Shown here piece after piece: positions 23,108 through 34,565 of a stretch of 54,645 bases of DNA. The notes under the pieces are model-generated. The model had not been told where the DNA came from, ran no database searches, and saw only the letters and a program-made list of their open reading frames with translations. Positions within the stretch are counted from its first letter, which is position 1. Each line of letters starts with the position of its first letter. The stretch spans positions 1 to 54,645 of the forward strand of contig JAUQWO010000033.1 of the NCBI GenBank assembly GCA_030835135.1. Direction: 5' to 3'. A program made the position numbers and the translations under genes. The stretch comes from Bacteroidota bacterium (lineage in GTDB: Bacteria; Bacteroidota; Ignavibacteria; UBA10030; UBA6906).

Positions 23108-24175
23108 TCATCGTTTGAACGCGAAGACGGCAGGCCCTTTCTGCACGGTCAGGGTCCGCTTCAGCGTCAGGGCCTGCGAATACACCCGCACCTCGCCCTT
23201 CCCCGCAAAGTTCTTCGCATCGGCGGCGTACACGTCACCTGATGATGCATCCACGGCCATTCCGTAATACGTTCCCGGGATCGCAGAGGCCGAGAGGGTT
23301 TTCGAGGTGATCACATACCGGTAGACGGGGCCACCATAGTAGCTCCCCGGGGTGACCCCGATGAAGAAGATGTCGCCGTTCGTTCCCGCAGACACCGTTC
23401 CCCAGAGCGGATCGTTCACGATGATCGAATCCTGGACGGACCGCGAGGCCGCATTGATCCTGTAGACTCCTCCCGGTACGGCGGGCACACTGTAGGGGTT
23501 CCCTGTGCATGCAACGAAGATCGAGCCATCGGCGGCTCTCGTGATACCCGTCGGACCTTCCCGCAGTGTGAGGGTCTTTGTCACCGCGAGTGGCGCGACA
23601 TGCACAACGCTTACTGTCCTGCCCGAGCCATAGCCGGAATTGCAGACGTACAGAACGTCTCCATCGAGAAGCATCTCCTGTGGGTTCGGCCCCACGGCAA
23701 CCGTATCCACGACATTCAGCGTCGCAAGATCAAGTGCTACCACGGCGTTGCGGTAGAGTTCCGTCACGTACAGCCGGCTCCGGACGGAATCCAGTACCAT
23801 GCTGTGTGGGACCCGGCCCGGATAGAACATGGATTGAACGATGTGATGATCGGCGGTACTCACGACCACGATGTTCTCCGACCCGCTCATCAGGACATAG
23901 AGTTTGTCCCGGAAGAGGATCATGTCATCTCCCGTGTTCCCCAGGTGTTGTCCGGCGTTCGCCCCTTCTACGACATCCACGGAGACCGTATCGCGGCCCA
24001 GATCATACAGGGAGAGCCGCGCCCCGGCAGCATCGGCGAAATCGCCCTCATTGAGGACATACACGCCCCGGGCAGCCGGAATGGCCGCCGAAGGAGTCTC
24101 GGGCGACGCAGGATCCTTCGAGCACGAAGACAGAAAAGCAAAAAGCGGAAGCGCGATCAGGCAAAGACGTTTCAT
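23108..24175 (-). CDS. btuG: BtuG-like beta-propeller surface lipoprotein
   Basis: A 355-residue lipoprotein: the signal peptide ends in a lipobox LSSC (Cys18, from ATG 24175). The mature part is a YncE/DUF5074-type seven-bladed propeller with repeated strands such as GVYVLNEGDF, LYVLMSGSENIVVVS, RLYVTELYRNAVVALDL, VLYVCNSGYG and GDVYAADAKNF. In Bacteroides, BtuG proteins are surface lipoproteins of this fold that capture cobalamin with very high affinity and pass it to BtuB. The gene lies 57 nt downstream of a riboswitch-controlled btuB, so the same role is inferred. ATG 24175 is preferred over 24184 because AAAAGG directly abuts the earlier ATG. Confidence 0.8.
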   Translation of the reverse strand: MKRLCLIALPLFAFLSSCSKDPASPETPSAAIPAARGVYVLNEGDFADAAGARLSLYDLGRDTVSVDVVEGANAGQHLGNTGDDMILFRDKLYVLMSGSENIVVVSTADHHIVQSMFYPGRVPHSMVLDSVRSRLYVTELYRNAVVALDLATLNVVDTVAVGPNPQEMLLDGDVLYVCNSGYGSGRTVSVVHVAPLAVTKTLTLREGPTGITRAADGSIFVACTGNPYSVPAVPGGVYRINAASRSVQDSIIVNDPLWGTVSAGTNGDIFFIGVTPGSYYGGPVYRYVITSKTLSASAIPGTYYGMAVDASSGDVYAADAKNFAGKGEVRVYSQALTLKRTLTVQKGPAVFAFKR

Positions 24176-24232
24176 GGACTTCATCCTTTTTCACGGTGAA
24201 CAAGGGCCGTTGGCGGCCGAGGGAACTGGTCT

Positions 24233-26263
24233 TCAATACGACACTTCACACGTCATCCGAAATGACCGGGGCGGCATCGGGTATCCGGCCATCACTTCAT
24301 AGGAGGCACCGAGCACATTGTCCACATGCAGGTCGAGGTGCACGCGCACGGGATCGACCCCCAGGACGCAGCCGATGCCGGCGGACAGGACATGGTATGC
24401 CGGCAGGAATGCCTGAGCGTCTTCGGTGATGAAGCGATGACCCACGTAGGAATAGCTGGCAGAGAACTCCACTTCTCCCAGGACATTCAGCCCGGTCGCG
24501 GACGCCCACGATCCCAGCACACCCGCCGTCTCCTCCGGCGCGTAGATCACGGGGACATGCGTGTTGGGATCCCCCGCATAATCTTGCGACATTTTCAAGG
24601 ACCGTTGCCGCGCATAGTGCGCGTCGAAACAGAAACCACCAGCAGCGAACCCGTACGTCACCTCTACCCCTCTGCTATCGACCCGCCGGAGGTTCCTGGG
24701 TGTGACATTCCCTCCCGGGGCCGAGACCCAGACGATCCTGTCCGTCATATCGGTGATGAACCCCGTGAGGTCCATGCGGTGCTCGCCCAGCCACCAGCCA
24801 CTCCAACCCACGCCAGCCTCATACCCGACGGACCGTTCGGGGCGCAGGTCCGGATTCCCGACCCCGCCGCCTCCCGCGTAGTACAGCTCGTTGAACGTGG
24901 GCACCCGGAAATTCCTGCTGGCCATGGCGCGGATCCTGACCGAGGCATCGTGGGCCATGCCGGGCATGGAGACCGGCATGCGCACAAGGAGCCCGAGCTG
25001 CGGACTCCATGCTTCGAGTGAGGATGACACATGATCGTAGCGCAGCGCGGGAAAGAGGACGGCGTGGAGGGACCCCATGGATCCGAGCAGGGTATGCTCT
25101 GCGGCGACGGCCCCGCCCCATGCGGTTCGCCGGGCATCATTGCGATACGTATTCCCGTCGCCCTGCACGAGTGCAAGATCGCCACCGGCATAGATCTTCG
25201 TCCGCTCACCCATACGCACGGCCGCATGCGATTCCACATGGACGTCACGGGTGGTCAGATGATTGTCCACCGGCACGAAGCCGATGATCAGGCCGGGATC
25301 GCGATAGCGCTGGTAAGCGTACTGTCCCTGCAACCGGGTCTCCCACGTCACCGATGGCGCAAGCGTCGCTGTCAGCGATGCCTGGACGAGAGCGGTGCGG
25401 TCAGCCTGGCGGCCCTGGCCGGCGCTAAAGGGACCGGTGACCACGCCGGGAACGCCACGGTCTGCATCGAGTACGGCTGCCGTTCCGGAGAACTGCAGGT
25501 TCGCGTCCACCGGCAGCGTCCATGAAGCAGCCAGGCGGTCCGCATGGATGTCCGCGTTCCGTCGGACCATTGCGTACTGTATGGGGCCGTTCGTCAGTTC
25601 GAACGGAAAGTCCTCGTCACTGGTCTCCCGCGATGCGCTGACCCTCCACCGGAATGACGACGCCCCGTCGCCTGCCGCGAGGTGCAGCGCGCGGTACCCG
25701 TAGGATCCGACAGTGAGTCCACCCTCCACGGTCTTCCCCTCCTCCATCGTCCGGGTGAGAACATTGACCACGCCGGCAACGGCATGGGCGCCCTGCAATG
25801 CCGACTGTCCGCCCTGAACGATCTCGATCGATCCGATATCATACGTGGAAAAGAGCCCGAGATCGAAGCCACCGTTATGCGCGCTATTCGCAGGGAGACC
25901 ATTTAACAGGAGCAGGGTGTGTTCGGTACCGAGTCCGCGCTGACTCACGGTCTTCAGGCCGGAGACTCCTCCGTAATCCTTGACGAAGAGCCCGCTTGCA
26001 GCGGCGAGGATGGTTCCAAGAGAGACGGCCCCGCTGGCCCCAATGGTACGGCGTGAGAGGACCACCGCCTGAGAGGGAGATGTGATCGCAGGCCGCGGGA
26101 TGCGCTGGCTTGTCACGATCATCTCGTGGAGGAGATACGTCCGAACCGAATCAGCACTGCGGCTCAAGGAAGTGTCCTGTTGGGCGGCAGCAGTATCGGA
26201 CATCGCCACAAGGCATGCTACGAGGAGGACGGGTAGGCGCGTATGTTCCAGACGGAGGAGCAA
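24233..26263 (-). CDS. btuB: BtuB-like TonB-dependent cobalamin receptor
   Basis: A 676-residue outer-membrane receptor. After a signal peptide (LPVLLVACLVAMSDTAAA) comes the plug domain with TVSQRGLGTEHTLLLLNGLP, IGSIEIVQGGQSALQGAHAV and AGVVNVLTRT. A barrel follows with FRVPTFNELYYAGGGGVGNP, LRPERSVGYEAGVGWSG and a final strand ending EVSY. B12 specificity is inferred from the cobalamin riboswitch upstream and the BtuG-like partner downstream. The frame is open to 26434, but that extension would translate the riboswitch. TTG at 26263 is chosen because AGGGAGAGG lies upstream and a signal peptide begins there. Confidence 0.88.
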   Translation of the reverse strand: MLLRLEHTRLPVLLVACLVAMSDTAAAQQDTSLSRSADSVRTYLLHEMIVTSQRIPRPAITSPSQAVVLSRRTIGASGAVSLGTILAAASGLFVKDYGGVSGLKTVSQRGLGTEHTLLLLNGLPANSAHNGGFDLGLFSTYDIGSIEIVQGGQSALQGAHAVAGVVNVLTRTMEEGKTVEGGLTVGSYGYRALHLAAGDGASSFRWRVSASRETSDEDFPFELTNGPIQYAMVRRNADIHADRLAASWTLPVDANLQFSGTAAVLDADRGVPGVVTGPFSAGQGRQADRTALVQASLTATLAPSVTWETRLQGQYAYQRYRDPGLIIGFVPVDNHLTTRDVHVESHAAVRMGERTKIYAGGDLALVQGDGNTYRNDARRTAWGGAVAAEHTLLGSMGSLHAVLFPALRYDHVSSSLEAWSPQLGLLVRMPVSMPGMAHDASVRIRAMASRNFRVPTFNELYYAGGGGVGNPDLRPERSVGYEAGVGWSGWWLGEHRMDLTGFITDMTDRIVWVSAPGGNVTPRNLRRVDSRGVEVTYGFAAGGFCFDAHYARQRSLKMSQDYAGDPNTHVPVIYAPEETAGVLGSWASATGLNVLGEVEFSASYSYVGHRFITEDAQAFLPAYHVLSAGIGCVLGVDPVRVHLDLHVDNVLGASYEVMAGYPMPPRSFRMTCEVSY

Positions 26264-26265
26264 TG

Positions 26266-26299
26266 AAAAAGCCTCTCCCTTCGACACGAAGAAAGAGGC
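26266..26299 (-). terminator. Riboswitch expression platform: terminator masking the RBS
   Basis: On the minus strand a 13-bp stem (GCCTCTTTCTTCG / CGAAGGGAGAGGC, loop TGT, two G-U pairs, 26271-26299) is followed by TTTTT (26266-26270), an intrinsic terminator. The 3' arm contains AGGGAGAGG, the presumed ribosome-binding site of btuB whose TTG is at 26263. Formation of the stem would therefore stop transcription and also hide the site on any read-through RNA. Confidence 0.8.
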
Positions 26300-26369
26300 C
26301 GCACACATGCGGGCACACGTATGCCGCACGCAAACGTCCCTCTCCTTCCCGCGAAGGCTTGTGTGGACC

Positions 26370-26511
26370 TGGTACCGGCAGGTCTCCTGGCTCGTGACCG
26401 GAACACTCGTGATGTCTTCCCGATGCCTGAGCATCGGTGACGTGCACGCCGTTTGTCACATACAGTTGCGGGGCAGCTTCCGCTTACACGGAATTCCCTT
26501 CACCGGCACCA
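26370..26511 (-). promoter_or_regulatory. Cobalamin riboswitch aptamer
   Basis: The minus strand carries the class I AdoCbl/cobalamin aptamer signatures in order: GGTGAAGGGAA, AAGCGGAAGCTGCCCCGCA with ACTGT (core at 26463-26478), a variable stem GATGCTCAGGCATC, GGGAAGAC, and the B12 box AGCCAGGAGACCTGCC (26377-26392). The closing P1 helix pairs TGGTGCCGG (26503-26511) with CCGGTACCA (26370-26378). It precedes btuB-btuG and a terminator, so the expected logic is repression when cobalamin is plentiful. Confidence 0.95.
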
Positions 26512-26533
26512 TTGATGCAAATGAACTTGACCC

Positions 26534-26562
26534 AATATAGTTCACGTACTACCAAAAGTCAA
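26534..26562 (-). promoter_or_regulatory. Promoter of the riboswitch-btuB-btuG unit
   Basis: TTGACT (26557-26562) - 17 bp - TATATT (26534-26539) on the minus strand. The expected start near 26527 is about 16 bases before the P1 helix of the cobalamin riboswitch. A divergent plus-strand candidate, TTGATG (26512-26517) - 18 bp - TATAGT (26536-26541), overlaps it and could serve the large plus-strand gene; this second one is weaker. Confidence 0.7.
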
Positions 26563-26666
26563 GCTCGCTTTCTCCGCCATCTGGCGAATATTAGCCGCAG
26601 GAAATGGCAAACGGGCTGTGATTTCAGCGTCTGTCGGCTCGGAGACACGTTCCGGTTTCTGGCACG

Positions 26667-29600
26667 ATGAATGCACTTTTCCCTCGTGGATACATGGCTA
26701 TGACACGACAGAACATACGACTAGCACTTCAGGCGGCGTTCTTGCTGTTCGGCACCTCGATGGCGTGGAGCATTGATCCCCCCGTCCTCGTCAGTCCGAC
26801 GAACGGCGCAACGAATCAGCCGGTCCTCATCACCCTCAGCTGGAACGCGGTCGCATTCGCCGATTCGTACCTCGTCCAGGTGGCAGATGATTCGCTGTTC
26901 GAGACGATCATCATCACACGGTCGGTTCAACACGCAGCGGTGGCCCTGCAATCCACACAGGTCGGGCCGCTCGTTGGCGACTCGACCTACTTCTGGCGCA
27001 TCAGGACTCGTGAAAGCGGAACCGGAACACTCAGCGGGTGGTCTGCTGCCTGGCGTTTCCGCACCATTGCGGCGAAGCCCGGGACGCCGGTACTCTCGGC
27101 GCCGGCGACCAATGCAACAGGGATCGCGCTCACGGACACCCTGCGGTGGAATGCGGATGCGATCGCGGACGCGTATCGTGTCGAGATCTCCACGAGTTCG
27201 GGATTCACGGCCGGGACACTGGTCGTCGATACCGTCGTCAGCGTGCAATGGGGATTCAGCATTCAGAAATTCCCCATGCGCAATCTCACCAACAAGGTGA
27301 AGTACTACTGGCGCATCCAATCACGGAGGGACGCGGACAGCAGCGCATGGGCGGTGGCGTGGAACTTCACCACGATCGTTGATACACCGGCCGTCCCAAC
27401 GCCTCTCACTCCTGCTGTGGGCGCCCAGAGCATTCCGATCAATACGACGCCCTTCACCTGGTCGGCGGTGACCGACGCTGCTTCCTACCGTCTGCAGATC
27501 GCCACCGATGCGGGTTTCACGTCACTCGTCTATAATGATTCCGCGATCACGACGGCGAGCAAGGCGGTTCCCGGTCTGCTGAACGGCACTGCGTACTACT
27601 GGCGCGTGAACGCAAAGAATGTGGCAGCGATCTCGCCGTTCTCGGCTGCACGCTCGTTCTCCACCAAGCTTGCCCCTCCGGGAGCCACCTCGCCAGCGAA
27701 CAACGCCACCAATATGCCGATCGTTCAGCTCCTCGATTGGGACGCCGTGGCGGGCGCAGCGAGTTACCGGCTCCAGGTCTCGACGGCAACATCGTTCACC
27801 TCGCTCCTCTATAATGTGGTGCTCGCCGCGGACACATTCACGGTGAGCGGACTCGCGAACAAGACCAAATACTATTGGCGCGTCTCCGCACGCAACGCCT
27901 CCGGCGATACCAGTGCCTATCCCACAACGGCCTGGAACTTCACGACCATCGTGGACACGCCCGCGGTGCCTGTGCTTTCAGGGCCGGTCAATGGCGCCAC
28001 AAGCCAGCCTGTCCCACCCACCGTGTCGTGGGTCGCCGCGGCGGACGCTGCGAATTACCGGCTTCAGGTGGCGAGCGATTCACTGTTCACGATCATTGCG
28101 TTCGATGACAGTGCAGTGACGGGACAGACCAAACAGGTGACCGGACTCTCCTACGGGGCCAGATACTTCTGGCGGGTCCGTTCCAGGAATGCAGCCACGA
28201 CCTCCGAGTACTCCGCGGTCTGGTCATTCAGCACAAAACCTCTTGCCCCCTCTGCCGTTAGCCCGGTGAGTGGAGCGACCGGCATCTCGACCAGCCCGCT
28301 GTTGTCATGGACGCCCGTTGCTGGCGCAACCTCGTACCACGTACAGGTCTCAGCCGCAACAGGATTCTCGCCCCTGTTGCTTGACGCCACGACCCCTCAT
28401 GATACCATCAGTCTCGGCCCGCTGGCGAACAAGACGAAGTATTACTGGAGGGTGAGTGCGCGGAACGCCAATGGGGACACCAGCGCATATCCGGGCAGCG
28501 TATGGAACTTCACGACGATCGTTTCGGGTGCCGGCGAGCCAACGCTCGTGGCCCCGCTGGACGGAACGAAGAGCATCCCGCCAACCGCTGCCGCGTTCTC
28601 CTGGATCAAGGTCACCGACGCCGCAAGCTACCGGCTCCAGGTGTCGACCGATATGGCATTCGGCACCACGGTCTATGATGATTCCACGATCACCGCGATT
28701 TCCAGGACCGTGGCCACGCTCCAGACGTCCACGCAGTACTTCTGGCGCGTCAATGCAAAGAATGCGGCAAGCACAAGCCCCTGGTCCGAGGTCCGCTCCT
28801 TCACCACCAATCTCGTACAGCCGGGCGTTTCAGCGCCCACGATCGGAGCGATCGATCAATTCGTGAATCCAACGCTCAAATGGACCGCCAGCCCGACTGC
28901 GGCTTCGTACCTGGTCCAGGTTTCACGCGCATCCGCATTCAAGACCCTGCTTCTGGAGACGACGGTCAACGCAGAATCATTGCAGATCTCTGGACTCGGA
29001 AATGATTCCGTGTTCTACTGGCGCGTGAGCGCGAGGAACGCAGCGGGCGATTCGAGTACCTACCCTGCCACGGGGTGGTCGTTCCGGACAAAGATCGCGA
29101 CACCGTACCTGAATCAGCCCCTTGCCAACGCAGCGGGGCAGGTCCTCAACCCGACACTCACCTGGTTCGCCTCGCCGGGCGCTTCGACATACCGGCTCCA
29201 GGTATCGGAAGACCCGGCGTTCCCCGGTGCCGTGGTGTTCGATGATGCCGCGATCACCGGCATCTCGCGCCAGATCGGCCCCCTCGGGAGCTCCCGCACC
29301 TACTACTGGCGGGTCAATGCACGCAACACCACCGGTACTTCCACCAGCCTCTGGTCCGAGGTGAGAGCGTTCACGACCCGGATCGACACACCGGCGGTTC
29401 CCGTCCTGGCATCTCCTACGAACGGTGCCCTCGATCAGGTGTTCTCTCCGACACTGCAATGGTATTCCGCCACCGGCGCGTCCTTCTACGGCCTGCAGGT
29501 GGCACTCGACTCGCTCTTCACCAGGGTGGTCTTCGAACGGTTCCCGCTCGTGGCGACCTCCTTCCAGGTCGGTCCGCTGCAGAGCAACACGACATTCTGG

Positions 29601-32600
29601 TGGCGCGTCCAGGCAACAAACTCCACCGGCACGGCCAGCAGCGCATATTCCACGCCGCGCTGGTTCCGCACCATGCTGGAAACGCCGGCTGTCCCCATGC
29701 TGTTTCTCCCCGCGAGCAGAAGCATGGTCCAGCCGCTCACTCCGGTATTGCGTTGGTCCTCCTTCTCATCATCGGAATGGTACCGGCTACAGCTTTCAAC
29801 CGATTCGTACTTTCCCACAACCGTGATCGACACGACCGGATTGACCGATACCGTCTTCGCGGTGACCGGTGCGGCGGGGCTCGGACACAACACGGCGTAC
29901 TACTGGCGGGTGAAGGGCATCAACAGGCTGGACAGCAGTGCGTTCGCCCTGCCGTTCAATTTTACGACGGTGATCGCCACTCCCACGCTCACGACACCAC
30001 CGAATCAGGCATCGGAATACACCCCCGCCAACGTCGCCTTCCAGTGGCTGCCGGTGTCCGGCGCACGCACGTATGCGTTCCGGCTGAGCATGGATTCGAC
30101 CATGAGCACGATCGTCCGGAGCGATTCCGGATTGTCCGGCACGTCCGTCATGGTGGACTCGCTTTCGGTGAGCACGCGGTATTACTGGCAGGTCTCCGCG
30201 CGAAGCGATAGCAACGGGGTGACGCTCTCCCCCATCTGGTCGTTCACCACATTGATCACCGTCCCCGGGGTCCCACTCCTGACATCGCCGGTCGCGGGGG
30301 CAACGAATCAGCCGACGAGCATCACGTTCCAGTGGCGACCCTCGCTGGGCGCGAATTCGTACCGCCTGCAGATCTCGACAGATTCTGTCTTTGGATCGGT
30401 GCTGTACGACTTCCCTGCGCTTGCGGCAACAAGCCACCAGGTGACATCGCTCGCATACAACACCACGTACTTCTGGCGGGTGAACGCATCGAACGGCAAC
30501 GGGCCCAGTGCGTACTCCCCCGTCCGTCGATTCACGGTCACCGTTCCTCCGCCCGCGGTGCCATCCCTGACAGCTCCGACGGACGGACAGAACGATGTGG
30601 GTCTTCCCGTTTTGCTCTCGTGGGGCCAGACCTCAGGGGCCGCGCACTTCCGCGTGCGGATATCATCGACACCGGATTTCTCCACCGTCGTGTATGATTC
30701 CCTCACCCTCGATAACTGGGTGACCGTCAGCAGCATCGCGTACGGCGCAACATTCTTCTGGCAGGTCACCGCCATCAATGCGGGAGGCTCACAATCGTCG
30801 GCGGTCTGGAGCTTCTCCACCCGGATCAGTATCCCTGCGGTTCCCGTGCTCGTGATGCCCACGAACGGAACCATCAACACGCCAACGACACTGACCCTGG
30901 AATGGAGTGGTGCGACGGGAGCATCACGGTATCACCTGCAGGTGGCGCGGGATTCCGTCTTCTCGATCCTCATCCTGAGCGATTCGTTGCTGACGGCCCC
31001 CCTCTGCACATTGAGTACACTCGACAACTACACACGATTCTTCTGGCGGGTGCGCGCGATCAATGCCGGCGGTTCGAGCACATTCTCGCAGGGGTGGTCC
31101 TTCCGCACGGTCATAGGGACACCGGTGCCGGTCTTCCCGGCCGTCGCGGCACTGCATCAACCCCATGCTACGCTCTTCCGCTGGAATCGCCTGGCGACCC
31201 CGGCTGGCTACCGGCTGCAACTCTCACGACTGCCGGACTTTTCTGCCCTGGACCTCGATGCAGCGGGGATCTCCGACACCGTGTACCAGGCTCCGCCCAT
31301 GGTAGGATTCACGCGGTACTACTGGCGCGTGAGCGCCCGATCGATCGATGGCTCGAGCACAAGCGCCTACTCGCTGTCGCGGTACTACACAACGGTGCTG
31401 GACACGCCCGCCGTGGTTGCGCCGGCACCCGATGTGATCGAGCAACCCGTGACCATGACCGTCCGCTGGCGCCCCGTGCACTACGCCGAGACATACCGTC
31501 TCGAGCTTGCCCGTGATGAGCAATTCACCACGACCGCATTCGTCGACTCTACCGCGCTCGACACCGCCCGCACGGTAGGGCCGCTGGATGGGATGACGTC
31601 GTACTGGTGGCGCTTGCGCGCGCAGAACCCGGCGGATGCCAGTGAATATACGGCCACACGGAAATTCATCACCACCATAGCCACGCCGGTCCCACACTTA
31701 CCGGTGAACGGCGAGCAGTTTGCACCGCTGTCGCCGACCCTGACATGGGCGGATGTTCCTGGAGCGGCGCGGTACCGTGTTCAGGTGGCAACCGACACAC
31801 TCATGACCCAGATCGTGCTGGATGACTCCCTCCTCGCGACGCCAAGCAGGAGTGTCGGTCCACTCCCACGGCTCATGAAACACTATTGGCGCGTCAGGGC
31901 GAAGTCGGCCGACGGTCATTCGATCGGAGCATATTCGCCGGTCTGGTCGTTCCGGACCGTCCCCGCCCCACCCTCGGCAACCACGCTCCTGGCACCGGCA
32001 AGCGGACTGCTCGATCAATCCCGCACCGTTCAGTTGCGGTGGCGGAAAGCATCCGGTGCCGACACCTATGGGCTGCTCGTGGCCACGGATTCTTTGTTCA
32101 CGCAGCTTGTGGTCGATGACACCACCATCACGGACACGGTGTACACGCCGAAGGCGTTGGACGGCCTGATGAGACACTACTGGCGCGTGCGGAGTCTCAA
32201 TCCGGGCGGCTCGAGCGCACCGACTGCATACTGGCATTTCACGACCATCATCGCGACGCCTCTGGCTGTCGCACCATTGAATGGTGTGCCGGATCAGCCC
32301 GTCAATCTGCGGCTGATCTGGTCCAAAGTCCCTCGCGCAACGACATACCGTCTGCAGCTGTCCACGGATTCCTTGTTCAAGACCACGCTCTTCGACGATT
32401 CGACTCTCGTGGACACCGCCCGCATGATCAGCAGTCTCGGACGGTCGAGGACGTACTTCTGGCGTGTTCGTGCACGGGCAGCAGGCGGGGCCAGTACGAG
32501 CATCTGGAGCCCGGCACAACGGTTCATCACCGTGCCCGATCCGCCCGCAACGCCGGTCCTCATGGCACCGGCCGTCAATGCGAAGAACATCCCGGTCAGT

Positions 32601-34565
32601 ACCATCATGTCGTGGCAATACGCGGCGCGCGCGGCCCGGTATCATGTGCAATTGGCCGCGGATACCGCGTTTGAATTCATCGTGCGTCAGGACTCCACCA
32701 TCGCCGACACGCTCTGGGCGTTGGATTCGTTGGACTACTATGCCGTGTACTACTGGCGGGTGAAGGCGACGAATGTCGGCGGGACCAGCGCATGGACCAC
32801 GCGGCGTCAATTCCTGACCACCCTGGCAACACCCGTCGCCATCACGCCCGCTCATGAGGCGGTGAACCAACCGGTCTCCGTGACGCTTTCCTGGACCTCG
32901 TCCAAAGGCGCGACACGCTACAGGCTCGTCCTGTCCGGCGATTCCCTCCTCCGTTCCCCTGTGGTCGACGATTCCACCATCACGGGCACGACACGGGTCG
33001 TCACCGGTCTGGCGCACACAACGAGCTACTTCTGGCGCGTTATCGGTCGCAGTTCGGACGGGGCATGCATCAGTCTGCCGTCGACAATACGAAAATTCAC
33101 CACGATCGTCGAAAAGCCCCCGCCACCCCAACCGGTCTCGCCATTGCACCTGGCCGAGGGCATCCCTGCAGGTGAGGGGCTGGTTTGGAGTTGCGCGGAG
33201 CGCGCGGACCGGTATCACGTTCAGATCGGCGCAGATTCGGAATTCGTCCAATTGCGACTGAATGATTCCACCTGCACCGACACCGTGAAGGTGCCTCTCA
33301 GCCTGTCGCCCCACACCGCGTACTGGTGGCGGGTGCGTGCCGGCAATCTCGCGGGCTTCAGCGCCTTCACGGCCGCCCGGAAGTACACGACCAGCATCGC
33401 CACCCCGGAATCGGTTTCCCCTCCGGATTCGGCGACAGGGATCGCATCGCTCGTGACCATGCGCTGGACGGCATCACCAGGAGCAGCCAACTACGTCCTC
33501 GAAGTCTCGGAGGATTCCCTGTTCGCGACCTTCTTCTTCCGGGATACCGCTGTCGCCAGCCTCTCGCGCGATGTGTCAGGCCTCGCTGCGTTCACCGTCT
33601 ACTACTGGCGCGTGAAGGCGGTCGACGCACGCGGTGCGGGGGCCTATTCAAGGATCGCGACATTCGTCACCAAACTCGTCGCACCTCTGGCGCCTCTGCA
33701 GGAATCGCCACAGAGCGGAGCGGGCTCACTGCTCACCGGCGTGGCCTTCCGGTGGCACCCGAGCAGACTCGCGGATTCGTATCACCTCCAGATCGCGACC
33801 GATTCGCCGTTCGACTCCACCGTGTATGAGCAGACGGGCATCCGGGACACGTTGGTGACCGTTTCGACGCTCGCATACGATACCCGGTATTTCTGGCGCG
33901 TGCGCGGGACGAACGCCGAGGGGGATGGAACATTCTCCTCGGTGTGGACCTTCAGCACAGTGGTGGCTCCGCCGGTGACCCCGGCGCTCCTTTCGCCGGG
34001 CAGCGCCTCGACGGGACAGCTGCCGAGCGTGAAGTTCCTCTGGCAGGCATCACCATTCGCCACGCGATACCATCTCCAGGTGGCAACGGATGCGCCGTTC
34101 ACGACGCCCGTCGTCAGCGATTCAACCCTGAGGGATACGGTCACCACGATCGGCCCGCTGCAGTACACGACAACCTACTACTGGCGTGTCCGCGCAGTCA
34201 ACTCCGACTGGACCACGCCGTGGTCACCCGTCTGGAGTCTGACGATCATGTCGCCGCCGGTGGCCTATGACCTGTACCAGAATTTCCCGAACCCCGGCAA
34301 TCCATCCACGGTGATCCGTTATGACATCCCGGCTGACGCCGAGGTGGTGATGACGTTGCACAATCTGCTCGGTCAGACCGTGCGCGTTCTTGTGAATGCC
34401 GCACAGAAACCCGGACGCTATGACTATACGCTCGATGCAGGGAATCTGCCCAGCGGGGTGTACTTCTACCGGATCACAGCGCGCTCGCTCGGGCTGGAGG
34501 CCGGCAACCCGGCACCGCCGGCCGACCCATTCGTGAAAACGTTCAAAATGATGATCCTTAAATAA
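26667..34565 (+). CDS. Giant secreted protein: 26 FN3-like repeats plus T9SS tail
   Basis: A 2632-residue exported protein. A hydrophobic signal (LALQAAFLLFGTSMAWS) ends near residue 36. Then 26 tandem beta-sandwich repeats of about 95 residues fill residues 37-2527. Each has an opening P-x-L-x-x-P-x-x-G-A, a central LxW...AxxYRLQVSxDxxF, and a closing YYWRVxAxNxxGxS...WxFxT, as in fibronectin type III-like modules of this lineage. The last 105 residues (YDLYQNFPNPGNPSTVIRYD, later GVYFYRITARS, ending FKMMILK) form a type IX secretion sorting domain. This predicts outer-surface display or release. Start codons at 26694 and 26700 are also possible; none has a Shine-Dalgarno. No catalytic domain is visible, so a structural or adhesive role is likely. 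Confidence 0.9.
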   Translation: MNALFPRGYMAMTRQNIRLALQAAFLLFGTSMAWSIDPPVLVSPTNGATNQPVLITLSWNAVAFADSYLVQVADDSLFETIIITRSVQHAAVALQSTQVGPLVGDSTYFWRIRTRESGTGTLSGWSAAWRFRTIAAKPGTPVLSAPATNATGIALTDTLRWNADAIADAYRVEISTSSGFTAGTLVVDTVVSVQWGFSIQKFPMRNLTNKVKYYWRIQSRRDADSSAWAVAWNFTTIVDTPAVPTPLTPAVGAQSIPINTTPFTWSAVTDAASYRLQIATDAGFTSLVYNDSAITTASKAVPGLLNGTAYYWRVNAKNVAAISPFSAARSFSTKLAPPGATSPANNATNMPIVQLLDWDAVAGAASYRLQVSTATSFTSLLYNVVLAADTFTVSGLANKTKYYWRVSARNASGDTSAYPTTAWNFTTIVDTPAVPVLSGPVNGATSQPVPPTVSWVAAADAANYRLQVASDSLFTIIAFDDSAVTGQTKQVTGLSYGARYFWRVRSRNAATTSEYSAVWSFSTKPLAPSAVSPVSGATGISTSPLLSWTPVAGATSYHVQVSAATGFSPLLLDATTPHDTISLGPLANKTKYYWRVSARNANGDTSAYPGSVWNFTTIVSGAGEPTLVAPLDGTKSIPPTAAAFSWIKVTDAASYRLQVSTDMAFGTTVYDDSTITAISRTVATLQTSTQYFWRVNAKNAASTSPWSEVRSFTTNLVQPGVSAPTIGAIDQFVNPTLKWTASPTAASYLVQVSRASAFKTLLLETTVNAESLQISGLGNDSVFYWRVSARNAAGDSSTYPATGWSFRTKIATPYLNQPLANAAGQVLNPTLTWFASPGASTYRLQVSEDPAFPGAVVFDDAAITGISRQIGPLGSSRTYYWRVNARNTTGTSTSLWSEVRAFTTRIDTPAVPVLASPTNGALDQVFSPTLQWYSATGASFYGLQVALDSLFTRVVFERFPLVATSFQVGPLQSNTTFWWRVQATNSTGTASSAYSTPRWFRTMLETPAVPMLFLPASRSMVQPLTPVLRWSSFSSSEWYRLQLSTDSYFPTTVIDTTGLTDTVFAVTGAAGLGHNTAYYWRVKGINRLDSSAFALPFNFTTVIATPTLTTPPNQASEYTPANVAFQWLPVSGARTYAFRLSMDSTMSTIVRSDSGLSGTSVMVDSLSVSTRYYWQVSARSDSNGVTLSPIWSFTTLITVPGVPLLTSPVAGATNQPTSITFQWRPSLGANSYRLQISTDSVFGSVLYDFPALAATSHQVTSLAYNTTYFWRVNASNGNGPSAYSPVRRFTVTVPPPAVPSLTAPTDGQNDVGLPVLLSWGQTSGAAHFRVRISSTPDFSTVVYDSLTLDNWVTVSSIAYGATFFWQVTAINAGGSQSSAVWSFSTRISIPAVPVLVMPTNGTINTPTTLTLEWSGATGASRYHLQVARDSVFSILILSDSLLTAPLCTLSTLDNYTRFFWRVRAINAGGSSTFSQGWSFRTVIGTPVPVFPAVAALHQPHATLFRWNRLATPAGYRLQLSRLPDFSALDLDAAGISDTVYQAPPMVGFTRYYWRVSARSIDGSSTSAYSLSRYYTTVLDTPAVVAPAPDVIEQPVTMTVRWRPVHYAETYRLELARDEQFTTTAFVDSTALDTARTVGPLDGMTSYWWRLRAQNPADASEYTATRKFITTIATPVPHLPVNGEQFAPLSPTLTWADVPGAARYRVQVATDTLMTQIVLDDSLLATPSRSVGPLPRLMKHYWRVRAKSADGHSIGAYSPVWSFRTVPAPPSATTLLAPASGLLDQSRTVQLRWRKASGADTYGLLVATDSLFTQLVVDDTTITDTVYTPKALDGLMRHYWRVRSLNPGGSSAPTAYWHFTTIIATPLAVAPLNGVPDQPVNLRLIWSKVPRATTYRLQLSTDSLFKTTLFDDSTLVDTARMISSLGRSRTYFWRVRARAAGGASTSIWSPAQRFITVPDPPATPVLMAPAVNAKNIPVSTIMSWQYAARAARYHVQLAADTAFEFIVRQDSTIADTLWALDSLDYYAVYYWRVKATNVGGTSAWTTRRQFLTTLATPVAITPAHEAVNQPVSVTLSWTSSKGATRYRLVLSGDSLLRSPVVDDSTITGTTRVVTGLAHTTSYFWRVIGRSSDGACISLPSTIRKFTTIVEKPPPPQPVSPLHLAEGIPAGEGLVWSCAERADRYHVQIGADSEFVQLRLNDSTCTDTVKVPLSLSPHTAYWWRVRAGNLAGFSAFTAARKYTTSIATPESVSPPDSATGIASLVTMRWTASPGAANYVLEVSEDSLFATFFFRDTAVASLSRDVSGLAAFTVYYWRVKAVDARGAGAYSRIATFVTKLVAPLAPLQESPQSGAGSLLTGVAFRWHPSRLADSYHLQIATDSPFDSTVYEQTGIRDTLVTVSTLAYDTRYFWRVRGTNAEGDGTFSSVWTFSTVVAPPVTPALLSPGSASTGQLPSVKFLWQASPFATRYHLQVATDAPFTTPVVSDSTLRDTVTTIGPLQYTTTYYWRVRAVNSDWTTPWSPVWSLTIMSPPVAYDLYQNFPNPGNPSTVIRYDIPADAEVVMTLHNLLGQTVRVLVNAAQKPGRYDYTLDAGNLPSGVYFYRITARSLGLEAGNPAPPADPFVKTFKMMILK
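26775..34250 (+). repeat. Coding tandem repeat, 26 units of about 288 bp
   Basis: The in-frame repeat units of the giant gene were counted by the recurring aromatic-W-R/Q-V/I/L motif (for example YFWRI, YYWRV, FYWRV, YWWRL, FFWQV), which appears 26 times at near-even spacing. The units are clearly homologous in protein sequence but have diverged at the DNA level, so they are old duplications and not a recent slippage array. Confidence 0.85.

Follow-up and report, generated by a model that had tools for sequence, protein, structure and literature searches.

Here, we describe a cobalamin riboswitch leader in which an intrinsic terminator and the likely ribosome-binding site (RBS) of the downstream gene, coding for a BtuB-like TonB-dependent receptor, occupy the same hairpin. 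The leader resides on a contig of a Bacteroidota genome (JAUQWO010000033.1), of which the whole analysed stretch of 54,645 nucleotides is referred to as the window. Its classification as a dual transcription/translation platform is well supported, and from the position of the RBS we infer that it acts on translation as well. On balance, we favour the reading that the leader probably works as an OFF-type cobalamin riboswitch in which control of transcription and of translation is merged in one expression platform.

Receptor gene and riboswitch aptamer

The receptor gene (24233..26263, minus strand; 676 aa) was recognised from the Pfam Plug and TonB barrel domains of its product. The best NCBIfam match is TIGR01779 (TonB-B12), and since its 107.9 bits lie under the equivalog cut-off of 599.7 we name the protein only "BtuB-like"; elsewhere in the genome, receptor matches are partial and reach at most 41.6 bits. 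A probable second gene (23108..24184, minus strand) codes for a beta-propeller protein (DUF5074/YncE-like in Pfam) with a lipoprotein-like start and with similarity to solved chains of surface-layer and YncE propellers, and by its position directly after the receptor it is a candidate surface partner in uptake. The window also includes, at 26667-34565 on the plus strand, a divergent ORF of 2632 aa with repeated fibronectin-III-like domains and a weak match, below its cut-off, to a C-terminal secretion-sorting tail, as well as a tRNA gene cut off at the contig end (1-61, minus strand).

Upstream of the receptor gene, a covariance-model search recovered the cobalamin riboswitch that a preliminary description of this DNA had proposed, with a full-length RF00174 match (model positions 1-189) at 26522-26360 on the minus strand scoring 82.6 bits, where the gathering threshold is 31.5 bits. 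A sigma-70-like promoter candidate, TTGACT-17-TATATT (26534..26562, minus strand), precedes the aptamer model by 11 nt and matches 10 of 12 consensus positions in a scan. The L5 loop CCCGC (26468..26472, minus strand) is complementary to GCGGG of L13, making the two putative kissing partners, and the P13/L13 hairpin CCTTC-GCGG-GAAGG (26344..26357, minus strand) is the candidate anti-antiterminator. A possible lower 5' strand of P13, GTCC (26365..26368, minus strand), could pair with GGAC at 26339-26336. Across the 22 family rows, L5 reads GCTGCCCCGC in 20 and L13 reads CTTCGCGGGAAG in 19, with L010, L011 and L023 deviating in L13, and the loops are thus too invariant to offer covariation support. 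On the minus strand, P13/L13 is separated by a variable stem from the terminator hairpin, and the distance of 70 bases previously given between aptamer and terminator is slightly corrected to 60 when counted from the end of the aptamer model.

Terminator hairpin, ribosome-binding site and their conservation

The expression platform holds an intrinsic terminator on the minus strand, and the earlier account of a 13-bp stem at 26271-26299 followed by T5 holds in both coordinates and description. The hairpin comprises the 5' arm GCCTCTTTCTTCG (26287..26299), which is common to terminator and antiterminator, the loop TGT and the 3' arm CGAAGGGAGAGGC (26271..26283), with 2 of the 13 pairs being G-U, and the T5 run follows at 26266..26270; the hairpin scan adds G26300-T26270 as a fourteenth pair. 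Counting both strands, this is the window's sole stem of at least 12 contiguous pairs that is followed by a T-rich tail, and 10 first-order Markov windows have none. A looser scan of 24000-28000 gave 4 terminator-like sites against 2.2 expected, and short hairpins of this kind therefore carry little weight. These terminator calls come from simple scanners; Barrick and Breaker used the program Rnall.

The 3' arm contains the Shine-Dalgarno-like (SD) sequence GAAGGGAGAGG, and the RBS GGGAGAGG lies at -16..-9 relative to the start, within the 3' side of the hairpin. The 16S tail of the same genome carries an intact anti-SD, CACCTCCTTTC, with which the btuB leader (-20..-1) pairs at -11.5 kcal/mol, a value equalled or exceeded by 4 of 157 first-ATG leaders and 12 of 1100 internal ATGs; the reading of the 3' arm as a purine-rich RBS is thereby borne out. 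In a survey of 359 kb of the genome, window included (211 ORFs of at least 200 codons), core SD 4-mers occurred upstream of 45 of 182 first ATGs and 115 of 1281 internal ATGs, peaking 9-13 nt upstream, so that SD sequences count in this host, moderately. Directly after the T5 run, the minus strand reads CA and then TTG (26261..26263), in frame with the receptor ORF ending at 24233, which agrees with the non-AUG start predicted 2-3 bases past the T-run. The distance from hairpin to TTG is 6-7 nt, within the limit of 10 nt by which dual platforms have been defined. The first codons, TTGCTCCTCC (26263-26254, minus strand), mirror the RBS (GGAG-AGGC), and a small start-codon hairpin may be possible in the antiterminated state.

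Three species of one genus (the window's and those of loci L016 and L017) preserve this region in its letters. P13 is invariant in 14 of 14 columns, the terminator 5' arm (26300-26288) in 13 of 13, the 3' arm GAAGGGAGAGGC (26282-26271) in 12 of 12 and TTTTTCATT in 9 of 9, so that arms and TTTTTCATT together are invariant in 34 of 34 columns, and the T-run and CATT are kept letter for letter. The surroundings have diverged: 12 of 43 columns are invariant between P13 and the terminator, 0 of 5 in the loop with its innermost pair (base 26287 is not common to all) and 10 of 75 after the conserved block, a stretch that holds 52 bases of the window and otherwise gaps. Over the aligned parts, the window's receptor shares 53% identity with that of L016 and 50% with that of L017. 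A genus-wide repeat was rejected as an explanation, since each genome that has the exact stem has a single copy, and the three congeners are the only such genomes among the 21 of the family and among the 391 class genomes searched. Arms kept in letters and not just in pairing fit a sequence with several pairing partners, although three species are few. A single hairpin arm would here be under several constraints, as terminator, as RBS and as near copy of the antiterminator strand, and it has stayed fixed in its letters among species whose receptors are half different.

Predicted alternative folds and proposed mechanism

Folding of the segment between aptamer and terminator, suggested previously as a check for an antiterminator, predicts one. 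The minimum-energy fold of 26365-26250 is the antiterminator and not the terminator (z -3.48; 0 of 200 shuffles as good), with the strand GGGAAGGAGAGG (26339..26350, minus strand) paired to the terminator 5' arm and GCCUUCG paired to CGAAGG of the 3' arm. The antiterminator strand is the 3' side of P13 and a near copy of the terminator 3' arm. When folding is followed during elongation, the antiterminator is ahead of the P13 fold by 7 kcal/mol in an RNA ending at 26275; once the T-run is complete it is level with P13 plus terminator, at -47.3 kcal/mol each, and remains about level up to 26239 (25 nt of coding sequence). In the model, these equal folds at the T-run amount to a poised switch. 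Extending the RNA by 40-74 nt of coding sequence tips the balance to the terminator fold by about 6 kcal/mol, and antitermination, i.e. the ON state, would therefore have to be kinetic; a simple equilibrium ON state was rejected on these folds.

Comparative support for the antiterminator is mixed. When whole antiterminator segments were swapped among 14 genus representatives, 3431 and 4418 of 20000 swaps were as good, so that own pairs did no better than chance and locus-specific complementarity of the whole segment was not supported. With the constant GGGAAGG core set aside, the remaining flanks did match the terminator of their own locus more closely than that of another (342 and 317 of 20000, again in 14 genus representatives). 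In a control with shuffled 5' arms, 53 of 500 equalled the pair of the window, and just 5 of 21 loci reached 25 of 500 or fewer.

The RBS is hidden in the terminator fold, where GGGAG and GAGG have an unpaired probability of 0.00, and in the forced antiterminator fold this rises to 0.24 for GAGG and 0.04 for GGGAG. Part of why release stays low in the latter is that GCUCCUCC, just past the start, can pair with the RBS. Over -15..-5, which includes part of the T-run, the unpaired probability goes from 0.18 in the terminator fold to 0.40 in the antiterminator fold, and seven other loci with the terminator abutting the start change in the same direction. The modelled release in the antiterminated state is thus small to partial.

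We propose the following mechanism, in which the ligand response, its direction and both regulatory effects are inferred. With B12 bound, L5-L13 kissing would stabilise P13 and sequester GGGAAGG, leaving the terminator 5' arm free; the terminator would then form, and most transcripts would stop in the T-run and never reach the start codon. In transcripts that read through, the RBS would still lie within the terminator stem and translation would be lowered too, a single structure acting at both levels as the preliminary description had suggested. In the absence of B12, the 3' side of P13 together with AGAGG would capture the newly synthesised terminator 5' arm at once, transcription would go on and the RBS would be at least partly exposed. 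The OFF logic is concluded by analogy with the metE riboswitch of Priestia megaterium.

Relatives, competing explanations and known systems

RF00174 matches are present in 20 of 21 family genomes, 24 in all, and 16 receptor-type loci could be scored for the distance from hairpin to called start. This distance is at most 10 nt in nine (L001, which is the window, and L004, L012, L013, L014, L016, L017, L018 and L019) and 15-26 nt in the remaining seven. The eight loci outside the scoring are L020 and L021 (missed by the aptamer regex), L003 (no ORF), L009 (first ATG 134 nt away), L022 (preceding a different gene), L002 and L024 (upstream of ribonucleotide reductase) and L023 (which reads alike). 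Start calls are uncertain in L011, L012, L013 and L018, with TTG at 3 and 9 nt in L018 and TTG at 2 nt beside the chosen ATG at 26 nt in L011, and the gene of L004 is broken by an N run. TTG or GTG starts characterise 8 of the 9 abutting loci and 1 of the 7 others (Fisher p 0.009); we do not rely on this association, as it was noticed post hoc among related loci that were each counted and falls to 5 of 9 if the ATGs of L012, L013 and L018 are starts. All three have this in-frame ATG within the 3' arm of the terminator hairpin, which may place their start codon in the stem.

The second RF00174 riboswitch of the window's genome (L002, G000:C51:54670-54856) is located upstream of a gene for the large subunit of ribonucleotide reductase (Pfam Ribonuc_red_lgC/lgN), as is L024 of a congener. 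The partial protein of L002 has NrdJ_Z as its best NCBIfam match, below cut-off. In both loci an ATG with its own SD is found 25-26 nt past the terminator hairpin.

In some relatives, an outer helix can form around the terminator by pairing of sequence upstream of it with the RBS or start downstream. This helix reaches 15 of 300 shuffles or fewer in 7 of 19 loci (L005, L008, L010, L011, L012, L014 and L024), of which L012 and L014 belong to the abutting loci; the combined p is 3e-6, each related locus being entered on its own and single-letter shuffles, T-run included, serving as control. Swaps among 12 genus representatives were as good in 165 of 20000. Among the receptor loci with distances of 15-26 nt, the helix was not seen at L006, L007 and L015, whereas L005, L008, L010 and L011 reach the level of 15 or fewer; in the window itself it was not seen either, 230 of 300 shuffles being as good. 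An alignment of L005, L008, L021 and L010 keeps CGTCCT(G/T)...(C/A)AGGACG with one compensated pair, GTCCTG/CAGGAC becoming GTCCTT/AAGGAC in another genus. These four loci combine a degraded T-run with a helix of the GTCCTG/CAGGAC type that encloses the terminator and in which the RBS is paired, L020 having the same 3' side, and transcriptional control may here be giving way to translational control.

The outer-helix results, read from sequence comparison, give hints that hiding of the RBS has been selected in the family. We advance only tentatively, as a possibility with the odds against it, the joint claim that the family's cobalamin switch is selected to block both transcription and translation through two interchangeable geometries, either with the RBS in the terminator 3' arm before the start, as in the window, or with the RBS or start codon paired in an outer helix formed around the terminator. 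If true, control at two levels would have evolved because it is required, instead of following from a short leader. With relatives in which the two functions are separated or nested, the family lends itself to asking whether two-level control is maintained by selection or is incidental.

The main competitor of the merged platform, unlikely but still to be reckoned with, is a purely transcriptional switch whose RBS falls in the 3' arm merely from the combination of a short leader and G-rich terminator arms. The L5-P13-antiterminator-terminator logic would suffice for regulation, G-rich 3' arms right before T-runs are common in the family, the SD is predicted to be freed little or partly in the ON state, and in the genome's second riboswitch the SD stands apart from the terminator, with the ATG 25 nt past the hairpin. 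Against this stand the preservation of the arms in letters and not just pairing in the three congeners, the place of the btuB leader among the strongest anti-SD matches, and the capacity of certain family loci whose arm lacks an SD to hide it in the outer helix. The opposite simplification, in which the T-run is incidental and the hairpin a plain RBS sequestrator, is very improbable, even if translation attenuation is the commonest prediction outside Firmicutes in the survey of Barrick and Breaker (PMC2258182). In our class survey, 34 of 46 loci outside the window's order are without a terminator-like hairpin and a hairpin was printed for 12, against 2 and 14 of 16 inside; these counts cover 62 of 69 loci, drawn from the best-scoring matches listed and not at random, parsed with a simple hairpin finder and uncurated starts, some hairpins being doubtful or far from the aptamer. 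However, the 13-bp stem of the window stands directly before T5 and is kept with the T-run in two congeners, and TTTT or more follows the hairpin in 15 of 22 parsed family loci.

It is just as improbable that translation starts elsewhere and that the hairpin does not mask the true RBS. Alternatives do exist in frame, the candidates from the hairpin on being GTG 26287 (in the loop), TTG 26263, GTG 26209 and ATG 26203, and the mechanical ORF begins further upstream at ATG 26434, inside the aptamer; the relatives L012, L013 and L018 have their in-frame ATG within the hairpin. Yet GTG 26287 is without an SD and without an in-frame counterpart in L016 or L017, where no in-frame start lies in the loop, and ATG 26203 would cost the signal peptide. 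Among the in-frame candidates, it is TTG 26263 that combines a signal-peptide-like hydrophobic N-terminus with an SD, which stands at normal spacing, and it recurs in L016 and L017 as a TTG 7 nt past the hairpin. We accordingly keep to TTG 26263 and to the merged platform as the preferred reading.

The btuB riboswitch of E. coli has an RBS hairpin and, unlike the window, is not known to have an intrinsic terminator. The two are alike in regulating a BtuB receptor or its like and in coupling the kissing loop and P13 to hiding of the RBS (described for E. coli in PMC10653944). The P. megaterium metE corrinoid riboswitch resembles the window in its L5-L13 kissing, its P13 and the use of the P13 3' side as antiterminator, and mutants there showed the roles of the kissing loop, the P13 3' side and the terminator (PMC10653944); in the window, too, the P13 3' side is predicted to pair with the terminator 5' side. 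The metE element is treated in that work as a transcriptional switch, whereas the window terminator additionally holds the RBS and abuts the TTG. Literature searches, judged by titles and abstracts, returned no experimental test of a dual platform.

The merged design, which the preliminary description sets against most riboswitches as using one of the two mechanisms, does not stand out as a type. Barrick and Breaker listed "dual transcription and translation attenuation" in 2007 for terminators so near the ORF that the RBS sits in their 3' side, defined by a distance of at most 10 nt from hairpin to start, and state that identical mechanisms had earlier been predicted for AdoCbl riboswitches (PMC2258182). 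The window switch therefore belongs to a known category, so far defined by distance to the start codon, and any newness is at most in the family pattern of 9 abutting loci out of 16 and some others able to hide the RBS or start in an outer helix. With its RBS in the 3' side of the terminator and its start directly beyond, the leader is like the dual platforms as that survey characterises them, and nothing essential differs (PMC2258182).
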